A stretch of 64,000 bases of DNA, from NCBI RefSeq assembly GCF_900564145.1, contig NZ_UOOB01000001.1:3598754-3662753 (forward strand), written 5' to 3'. Origin of the DNA: Comamonas sp. lk (GTDB lineage: Bacteria; Pseudomonadota; Gammaproteobacteria; Burkholderiales; Burkholderiaceae_C). Shown one piece after another: positions 39,599-41,541 of this stretch (the stretch's first letter is position 1; the number at the start of each line of letters is the position of its first letter). The position numbers were made by a program, and so were the translations under genes. The notes under the pieces were generated by a model. It was not told the DNA's origin. It saw only the letters and a list, made by a program, of their open reading frames with translations, and did no database searches.

Positions 39599-40014
39599 GA
39601 AGAGTCCCTAGCTTGTGTCAGCGCCTCTTGGCCGGTCGCCGATCACCGATTGCAAAAATGGAAGCTGCAAACCTTGATCGGGTTTGCTCTGCGTCAATTC
39701 TTCTTCAGTTTTGATAGCAAGAAAATCAATGTGGATATGAGCAATTCGAATGATATATATCTAATAGAAGACTTGATTCCCAGCAGGCGGCACTTGCGAA
39801 AAACTTGGCCACCCATGCAGATTACGCATCGACAGAACCCATATTCAGCTTGCGCCGGCCGCTATCAAATTAATTAGCGCACTGCAGGCCCAAGGCCCTC
39901 TTTTAGCCTTGTATTTTTGTTTGCCATGTCAAGCACAGACAAACCCGGCCACCAAACAATGCGATTTGCATTTGTCAATATACGAAACGTATATCAACCG
40001 TATGATGCCCGGCC
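39599..40014. promoter_or_regulatory. A/T-richer 416-base control region between ndh and the ParD-like/map pair
   Basis: No convincing gene. The region is richer in A/T than its surroundings and contains TTTTGATAGC (39709-39718) and GCTATCAAA (39861-39869), inverted fragments of the interspersed repeat. A 17-base palindrome (39978-39994) lies next to the downstream ParD-like gene. A possible -35 (TTTGCA/TTGCAT at 39965-39971) with a -10 (TATATC at 39990-39995) overlaps that palindrome. Confidence 0.6.
39978..39994. promoter_or_regulatory. Palindromic operator candidate before the ParD-like/map operon
   Basis: ATATACGAAACGTATAT is a perfect 7-3-7 inverted repeat. A further half-site, CGTAT, follows at 39999-40003. 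It overlaps the presumed -10 element and ends 20 bases before the ATG at 40015. Ribbon-helix-helix antitoxins commonly repress their own promoters through such dyads, so autoregulation is a reasonable inference. Confidence 0.6.
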
Positions 40015-40278
40015 ATGGGAATCGTCAAAATTTCAGATCAGTTGCACGACCAGATCCGTGTCTCCAGTGCGGCCCTCGGCCGCTCCATCAATGCACAGGC
40101 AGAGCACTGGCTGCGTGTAGGCCAGCTGGCCGAGCACCACCCCCAGCTCAATTACGAGGGCATCTGCGCCTTGCTGTTGCAGCAGGCCGAGCGCGAGCTG
40201 CTGCCTTCGCAAAGCTATGCAGCCGACGCTGCTGCGCGCCGCCCGCGCCCGGTTCGTCTGGTGGGAGGCATGCAATGA
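40015..40278 (+). CDS. ParD-like antitoxin-family protein (ribbon-helix-helix)
   Basis: An 87-residue protein beginning MGIVKISDQLHDQIRVSSAALGRSINAQAEHW, which reads like the strand and two helices of a ribbon-helix-helix DNA-binding domain of the ParD-like family. The C-terminal part (NYEGICALLLQQAERELLP...) is helical then basic. The stop codon overlaps the start of map by four bases (ATGA, 40275-40278), so the two are translationally coupled. There is no ParE- or other known toxin gene beside it; map stands in the toxin position. A palindrome lies over its presumed promoter. Confidence 0.78.
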   Translation: MGIVKISDQLHDQIRVSSAALGRSINAQAEHWLRVGQLAEHHPQLNYEGICALLLQQAERELLPSQSYAADAAARRPRPVRLVGGMQ

Positions 40279-41081
40279 AGCGCGGCAAGCACAAAGTCGT
40301 GCCCATCAACGACGCCAGCGACATTTTTCTCTCGCGCAAGGCCGGCGGTCTGGCGGCCAAGGTGCTGGCCATGCTCACGCCCCATGTACAGCCCGGCGTG
40401 AGCACGCAAGACCTGGACCAGCTTTGCCATGACTACATAGTCAACGAGCTCCAATGCGTGCCCACCAATGTGGGCTATCACGGCTTTCCCAAGACGGTGT
40501 GCACTTCGGTGAATCACGTGGTCTGCCACGGCATCCCCGATGCCAAGCAAATCCTCAAGGAAGGCGACATCATCAATGTGGACGTGGCCGTGACCACGCC
40601 CGAGGGCTGGATTGGCGACACCAGCCGCATGTATTACGTGGGCCAGCCCAGCAATCTGGCCAAGCGCCTGGTCAACACCACCTACGAAGCCTTGCTAGCC
40701 GGCATTCATGCCGTCAGGCCCGGCGCCACGCTGGGCGATGTGGGCCATGCCATCCAGACCGTGGCCCACCGCGAGCGCTTTTCCGTGGTGCGCGAGTATT
40801 GCGGTCACGGCATCGGCAAGGTCTACCACGATGAGCCCCAGGTGCTGCACTACGGCACGCCGGGCCAGGGCCTGGTGCTGCAGCCGGGCATGATCTTCAC
40901 CATCGAGCCCATGCTCAACGCCGGCAAAGCCGCCACGCGCGAGCTGGCTGACGGCTGGACGGTGATCACCAACGACAAAACGCTCTCGGCCCAATGGGAG
41001 CATATGGTGGTGGTCACGGAAACCGGCTTTGATGTGCTGACTGCCTGGCCCGAGGGTACGGGCGACTATCCGGCCATCTGA
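40275..41081 (+). CDS. map: Type I methionine aminopeptidase (probable second copy)
   Basis: Removes N-terminal Met from new proteins. The 268-residue enzyme has all five metal ligands: Asp pair in INVDVAVTTPEGWIGDTSRM, His in EYCGHGIGKVYHDEP, Glu in MIFTIEPML, Glu in WEHMVVVTE; also the conserved GFPKTVCTSVNHVVCHGIPD. The ATG at 40275 is set by the overlap with the ParD-like gene and by the family start; the open frame extends upstream but in the leader. The main map in betaproteobacteria usually lies beside rpsB-tsf, so this copy, coupled to an antitoxin-like gene, is probably an accessory one (inference). Confidence 0.92.
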   Translation: MKRGKHKVVPINDASDIFLSRKAGGLAAKVLAMLTPHVQPGVSTQDLDQLCHDYIVNELQCVPTNVGYHGFPKTVCTSVNHVVCHGIPDAKQILKEGDIINVDVAVTTPEGWIGDTSRMYYVGQPSNLAKRLVNTTYEALLAGIHAVRPGATLGDVGHAIQTVAHRERFSVVREYCGHGIGKVYHDEPQVLHYGTPGQGLVLQPGMIFTIEPMLNAGKAATRELADGWTVITNDKTLSAQWEHMVVVTETGFDVLTAWPEGTGDYPAI

Positions 41082-41208
41082 AGCCCCGGCCCGTGTGCGC
41101 ACAAGCCAGCGCGGCCTGCAAGCGCGGGACGCCAGCACCGGGGAAATGCGCAGGGATTTGCAGGCCGCCTCTCGCGCGGCCGGCACTGTGCCACTACATT
41201 CGGCAACC

Positions 41209-41541
41209 ATGAGCAATTATGTGTATCTGGGCCTGGCCATCATGACCGAGGTAGTCGCCACCTCGTTTCTTGCCAAATCGGACGGCTTTACCAAGCTGGT
41301 CCCCACCAGCATTGCCCTGGTGGGCTATGCCATCTCGTTTTACCTGCTGGCCCTCACGCTGCGCGTGGTGCCCACGGGCGTGGCCTACGCCATCTGGTCG
41401 GGCGTAGGCATTGTTCTCGTCTCGGCCGTGGCTTACTTCTGGCAAGGCCAGAAGCTGGATGGCCCGGCGCTGATAGGCATGGCCATGATTGTCTGCGGCG
41501 TGCTGGTGATCAATCTGTTTTCCAAGACCGCAGGTCACTGA
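41209..41541 (+). CDS. Small multidrug resistance (SMR) family transporter, EmrE-like
   Basis: A 110-residue membrane protein with four hydrophobic helices, the dual-topology SMR form. The essential Glu14 is in LAIMTEVVATSFLAKSDGF, and the second-helix and third-helix motifs (FYLLALTLRVVPTGVAYAIWSGVGIV) match EmrE/QacE. It would exchange protons for cationic drugs or quaternary ammonium compounds. The ATG at 41209 begins the conserved part. Its last seven bases overlap the end of the convergent hydrolase gene (41535-41541). Confidence 0.9.
   Translation: MSNYVYLGLAIMTEVVATSFLAKSDGFTKLVPTSIALVGYAISFYLLALTLRVVPTGVAYAIWSGVGIVLVSAVAYFWQGQKLDGPALIGMAMIVCGVLVINLFSKTAGH

Follow-up and report, generated by a model that had tools for sequence, protein, structure and literature searches.

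The closest described systems to the locus studied here are the two-gene operons in which a small ribbon-helix-helix (RHH) protein of family PF11903 is encoded in front of a ParE-like protein of PF15781, the RHH repressors CopG, Arc, PutA and AmrZ with their multi-half-site operators, and Map of E. coli (TIGR00500), a methionine aminopeptidase (MAP). We analysed a gene pair from Comamonas sp. lk that lies in a stretch of 64,000 nucleotides (contig NZ_UOOB01000001.1, positions 3,598,754 to 3,662,753; below, the window). As in the PF11903/PF15781 pairs, a small RHH gene of the same family comes first in a two-gene operon, it shares a multi-half-site operator and, as a model, the fold with the known repressors, and the second gene, map, encodes a MAP that keeps the metal ligands and His79 of the E. 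coli enzyme. Unlike the PF11903/PF15781 pairs the RHH protein has a MAP as its partner, lacks the C-terminal tail motif of most toxin-linked members and possesses an invariant Met-Gly N-terminus, and unlike CopG, Arc, PutA and AmrZ it is apparently dedicated to an N-terminal processing enzyme. Compared with E. coli Map the linked MAP is an accessory copy with Tyr or Met in place of Phe177, Asn, Ser or Thr at position 59 and, in its type B, mostly Asn in place of Cys70. Comparison of sequences suggests, with a probability of roughly 0.8, that the RHH protein is a dedicated repressor of its own promoter holding down an operon with an accessory MAP, and we offer excision of its own Met1 as the signal. 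The features of the locus are as follows.

39978-39994, no strand: palindrome ATATACG-AAA-CGTATAT, presumed operator, ending 20 bases before the ATG of the RHH gene
39999-40003, + strand: extra half-site CGTAT; in relatives the half-sites repeat with an 11-bp period
40015-40278, + strand: RHH gene (PF11903), 87 amino acids, N-terminus MGIVKISD, presumed autorepressor
40275-41081, + strand: map (TIGR00500), accessory type I MAP isozyme with Tyr at E. coli position 177

The initial annotation had described a ParD-like RHH gene overlapping a complete type I map by ATGA, with a perfect 7-3-7 palindrome ending 20 bases before the first ATG and a half-site behind it, and the sequence together with profile matches bears this out. 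The RHH protein matches PF11903 with an E-value of 9.9e-31 (106 bits, gathering cut-off 23), and the map product matches TIGR00500 with 300 bits (cut-off 171), its sole Pfam match being Peptidase_M24. The map gene is complete, and as its open frame extends further 5' the ATG at 40275 was chosen by homology. What had been called a fusion in translation is an overlap of four bases without any fusion. That the palindrome also covers the -10 element was an inference, since a sigma-70 scan of 39850-41250 detected no promoter; TATGAT at 40001-40006, which overlaps the extra half-site, may be a -10.

The pairing of such an RHH gene with map recurs across genomes. Scanning a single genome for each species yielded 42 named RHH loci, every one with a map match directly downstream, a set biased towards the MGIVKISD N-terminus because MGIVKISD was among the search patterns. 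Another 36 loci from the genus and 45 from a phylum sample were found with the PF11903 model and are free of this bias. In the genus this model matched in 37 of 53 genomes, and in 14 control genomes it had no match; 36 genus genomes possess an RHH protein of the Met-Gly type with map adjoining in 36/36, and the loci L087 and L088 carry another PF11903 type followed by a small toxin-like gene. In the phylum sample 109 of 398 genomes had a match, at 117 places, of which 110 match rows were read (108 via loci, 2 already included) and 7 weak ones left out. With three repeats dropped (L118, a duplicate of L090, and the 2 already included from the genus set) this gave 45 MAP-linked loci, defined by a match to map no more than 150 bp from the stop codon of the RHH gene, 55 linked neither to a MAP nor to a zeta-like kinase and 7 linked to a zeta-like kinase; the window copies L001 and L003 are excluded as well. 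Map adjoins the Met-Gly type in all loci of the three sets, including 45/45 of the phylum sample. In one Paracidovorax locus (L028, 5001-5320) the match to map behind the RHH gene covers no more than its final 109 residues, which may reflect a deletion or an assembly fault.

The palindrome, too, is found upstream of homologues. Within the 110 bases upstream, TATACG-N3-CGTATA with at most 2 of 12 mismatches is present in 110 of the 123 MAP-linked loci (36/42 named, 34/36 genus, 40/45 phylum). It was not found upstream of other PF11903 members, neither in the 57 loci without MAP or zeta partner (L177 has no upstream sequence) nor in the 7 zeta-linked ones, and shuffled controls that preserve only the base composition matched in 6 of 2460 cases. 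Thirteen MAP-linked loci do not fit the operator, including L015, L042, L043 and L129. The last three are related and show CTACATA-like upstream repeats by eye, with an unchanged RHH strand and a helix that reads RKNS. The 7-3-7 pattern has a single exact occurrence in the genome of Comamonas sp. lk (4.9 Mb); allowing two mismatches adds 1 site, and the reversed control gave 6 per strand. A scan for targets in trans, restricted to exact matches, covered 38 genomes that have the pair and 5 whose second map is solo, 43 in all, and returned 21 sites. Promoters of RHH-map pairs account for 16 of these and a solo map for 1, and the other four lie away from map. As the reversed pattern gave 8 sites in the same genomes, the four are taken as chance.

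An AlphaFold model built from an alignment of 58 rows, other PF11903 members among them, shows the strand-helix-helix arrangement of an RHH protein; a model built from 32 MAP-linked rows showed one long helix. The fold model matches known RHH repressors and aligns the start Met with residue 9 of Arc and residue 4 of CopG, both of which we take to contact DNA. A search of the PDB with the RHH sequence returned only engineered proteins (E 0.2-0.5) and a profile search no match. The top four Foldseek rows were RPA proteins (E 0.42-0.85) and were not used.

Four observations lead us to infer a repressor: the operator is conserved, it stands in front of the RHH gene, exact sites cluster at map promoters, and the fold model is that of an RHH protein. 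At its own promoter the RHH protein would occupy the row of TATACG/CGTATA half-sites and thereby repress an operon in which, the RHH gene apart, only the gene for an accessory MAP with intact catalytic residues is conserved. Control in trans is suggested by two Oxalobacteraceae genomes, Massilia sp. Root351 (L113) and Pseudoduganella lurida (L240). Each contains, apart from its RHH-map pair, a third map that stands alone at another place and has an operator array immediately 5' of its start (0 and 1 mismatch). Since the two solo MAPs are nearest to different linked MAPs and 74% alike, they would represent two separate losses of the RHH gene with the operator retained; there are only these two cases.

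As PF11903 members are known from toxin-antitoxin operons, we considered whether the pair is a type II system with MAP as the toxin and the RHH protein as the antitoxin. Such systems typically show this gene order and overlap, and among the 57 members linked neither to a MAP nor to zeta (the 55 from the phylum sample together with L087 and L088, classed as TOX simply by this lack) 50 have a ParE-like frame downstream. The ParE-like call is a match to a profile built from five ParE-like proteins which are themselves counted among the 50, and Pfam assigns these five to PF15781. No profile match was obtained for L173, L178, L193, L194, L208, L214 and L216, some of them at contig ends, and another TOX locus, L200, has a map of unrelated type 769 bp away. 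However, the MAP-linked members lack what most toxin-linked ones share at their C-terminus: a YxF or TFxP tail motif is present in 44/57 of these non-zeta members, in 0/7 zeta-linked and in 0/123 MAP-linked ones, a motif picked after viewing the alignment and only assumed to bind the toxin. Furthermore, the partner is a TIGR00500 MAP, which is no known toxin, and the linked MAP is full-length with its catalytic residues intact in 76/76 representatives.

Genomes without the RHH gene bear on this as well. Among the 17 genus genomes without a Met-Gly-type RHH protein 10 keep the second map, in 8 of them followed by the same gene of the SMR family as in the window and in 3 preceded by the window's NDH gene. 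At these ten solo maps no operator was found in 300 bp, the best sites having 4-5 mismatches. Thus map is kept without the RHH gene, the operator is absent where the RHH gene is absent, and MAP is unlikely to be a toxin; we regard the toxin-antitoxin explanation as very improbable. Of the control proposed in the initial annotation the repressor-style part appears, by sequence, to hold, whereas antitoxin-style neutralisation does not, given the missing tail motif and the survival of map without the RHH gene in ten genus genomes. At one locus (L085) a 34-codon open reading frame beginning MAIVN takes the place of the RHH gene and overlaps map by ATGA; the operator is absent there. A third PF11903 operon type (L166, L217-L222) consists of an RHH gene followed by a gene for a zeta-toxin-like P-loop kinase; the one partner checked with Pfam matches Zeta_toxin.

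As for the linked MAPs themselves, D97, D108, H171, E204, E235 and H79 are kept in all 76 linked representatives (E. coli numbering, via L108); the first five are the metal ligands. The enzymes split into two clades, both with support, and carry either Tyr (33 representatives) or Met (43) at position 177. Phe stands there in all 15 non-linked representatives, a count without the two divergent sequences and L113. Asn, Ser or Thr occupies position 59, and in 98% of the type-B enzymes Asn replaces Cys at position 70; positions 177, 59 and 70 belong to the pocket of E. coli Map. The alignments exclude the partial sequences L028, L035 and L065 and the residue counts also the divergent L110 and L114, and grouping was by residue 177, residue 63 having been discarded as a poor grouping. 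A tree of 37 MAPs places the linked ones on one side of a branch (support 82/89) and a tree of 100 places them on both sides of the free MAPs, and the 37-row tree neither shows nor rejects a single-clade origin.

That the enzyme is an accessory one, as the initial annotation had supposed, is supported by a second MAP gene in the genome of Comamonas sp. lk (G000:C1:3457858), 56% identical and 181 kb off. The main map had been expected beside rpsB, which does not apply here: rpsB lies about 102 kb from this other map, so neither map of the genome is rpsB-linked. Among 41 pair-bearing genomes 40 have at least two MAP matches (three rows below the family cut-off), the exception being the fragmented metagenome bin G069. 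In the genus 34 of the 36 pair-bearing genomes have two MAPs, one of them partial, and G001 and G033 (59% complete) have the linked one only. G001 is given as 100% complete, and two MAPs are present in G051, whose RHH protein is nearly identical to that of G001; the single MAP of G001 is possibly due to a contig gap.

Constant adjacency and frequent gene overlap could also mean that MAP itself binds the RHH protein directly and adjusts its activity as a co-repressor or anti-repressor, comparable to conditional cooperativity in toxin-antitoxin operons, and common ancestry with antitoxins would fit this as well. Yet in the alignment of MAP-linked members no well-conserved segment is found past about residue 50, which leaves no shared surface for MAP binding visible beyond the RHH domain, and MAPs of two distinct clades accompany one and the same RHH type. 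We consider such binding conceivable but somewhat doubtful.

The N-terminus is strongly conserved. All 123 MAP-linked members begin Met-Gly-[Ile/Leu]-[Val/Ile]-[Lys/Asn] and carry His11, and none of 64 other PF11903 members has the Met-Gly start (start codons assigned mechanically). Among 240 listed database relatives (of 368 and 2197 matches) 239 have Gly and one has Cys as the second residue, preceded by Met in 235 and by Val, read as a GTG start, in 5; His11 is present in 240/240. Each of residues 2-6 is encoded by at least two synonymous codons, and therefore selection acts on the protein.

This invariance of His11, in 123/123 loci and all 240 listed proteins, might point to a small ligand or a metal as the signal, with map being induced under metal or oxidative stress, and the exchange of the pocket residue Cys70 for Asn in 98% of the type-B linked MAPs would agree with it. 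But neither a conserved cysteine nor a second invariant histidine is visible in the alignment of MAP-linked RHH proteins, and His11 may just contact DNA or hold the fold, which leaves a ligand or metal response a tentative and rather doubtful option.

Met1, aligned with the first strand residue by which Arc and CopG contact DNA, is followed by an invariant Gly that allows its efficient removal by MAP, and the Met1-Gly2 N-terminus of the repressor would thus be a substrate of the enzyme. If Met excision became too low through metal shortage, an inhibitor or overload, unprocessed repressor would build up, repression would fail and the second MAP would be made. The repressor would then be its own activity sensor, its Met-free form shutting the operon and its Met-retaining form unable to do so; a shortfall of MAP or deformylase would leave Met on the repressor, and the cell would in effect count uncut N-termini and call up a MAP with an altered pocket. 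The data allow this as a more specific form of the proposal in the initial annotation that the pair senses free enzyme. Two points weigh against it: across the sets analysed only Gly occurs there, with neither Ala nor Ser, which suggests an additional structural requirement, and a small second residue is common among toxin-linked members as well. On balance we hold sensing by Met excision to be unlikely. Plain autoregulation without any sensed signal, in which the RHH protein would do no more than keep the second MAP constantly low, has the advantage that the data demand no inducer, but would leave the full invariance of M1, G2 and H11 to be explained, perhaps by DNA binding alone; it appears unlikely as a complete account. 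The favoured explanation remains the dedicated repressor.

In databases such genes are named ParD-like family protein or antitoxin, yet the MAP-linked subfamily looks like a regulator. It would be a clear case of an antitoxin-family RHH protein apparently serving enzyme regulation, with a defined putative operator, and the sensing mechanism, if true, would reveal a way in which bacteria could keep track of Met removal from N-termini. The titles and abstract beginnings of the literature matches listed describe neither the RHH-map pair nor a dedicated sensor of N-terminal Met excision, and the pair is likewise not described in the excerpts of PMC3948609, PMC11481867, PMC11651100, PMC13129497 and PMC6796979. 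The excerpt of PMC11651100 mentions an antisense RNA of C. difficile map2, that of PMC6796979 Acinetobacter plasmids with a map gene and separate toxin-antitoxin genes, and that of PMC3969242 the sensing of NO in plants through the N-end rule.

Phage records gave no match. Plasmid records with a match number 159, of which 95 are from Pantoea, and in the single one opened map adjoins the RHH gene. Beyond the pair no convincing conserved neighbour was seen by eye in the 42 named loci: one neighbour cluster, present at 12 of the loci, and two larger clusters coincide in part with the pair itself and appear to be shadow frames, and all others occur in at most 7 loci. SMR, NDH, PLD and PhoD neighbours recur within the genus set only. 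The SMR-family efflux gene at 41209-41541, directly 3' of map in the window, is retained in most genus loci of the window's type, whether the RHH gene is present or not.
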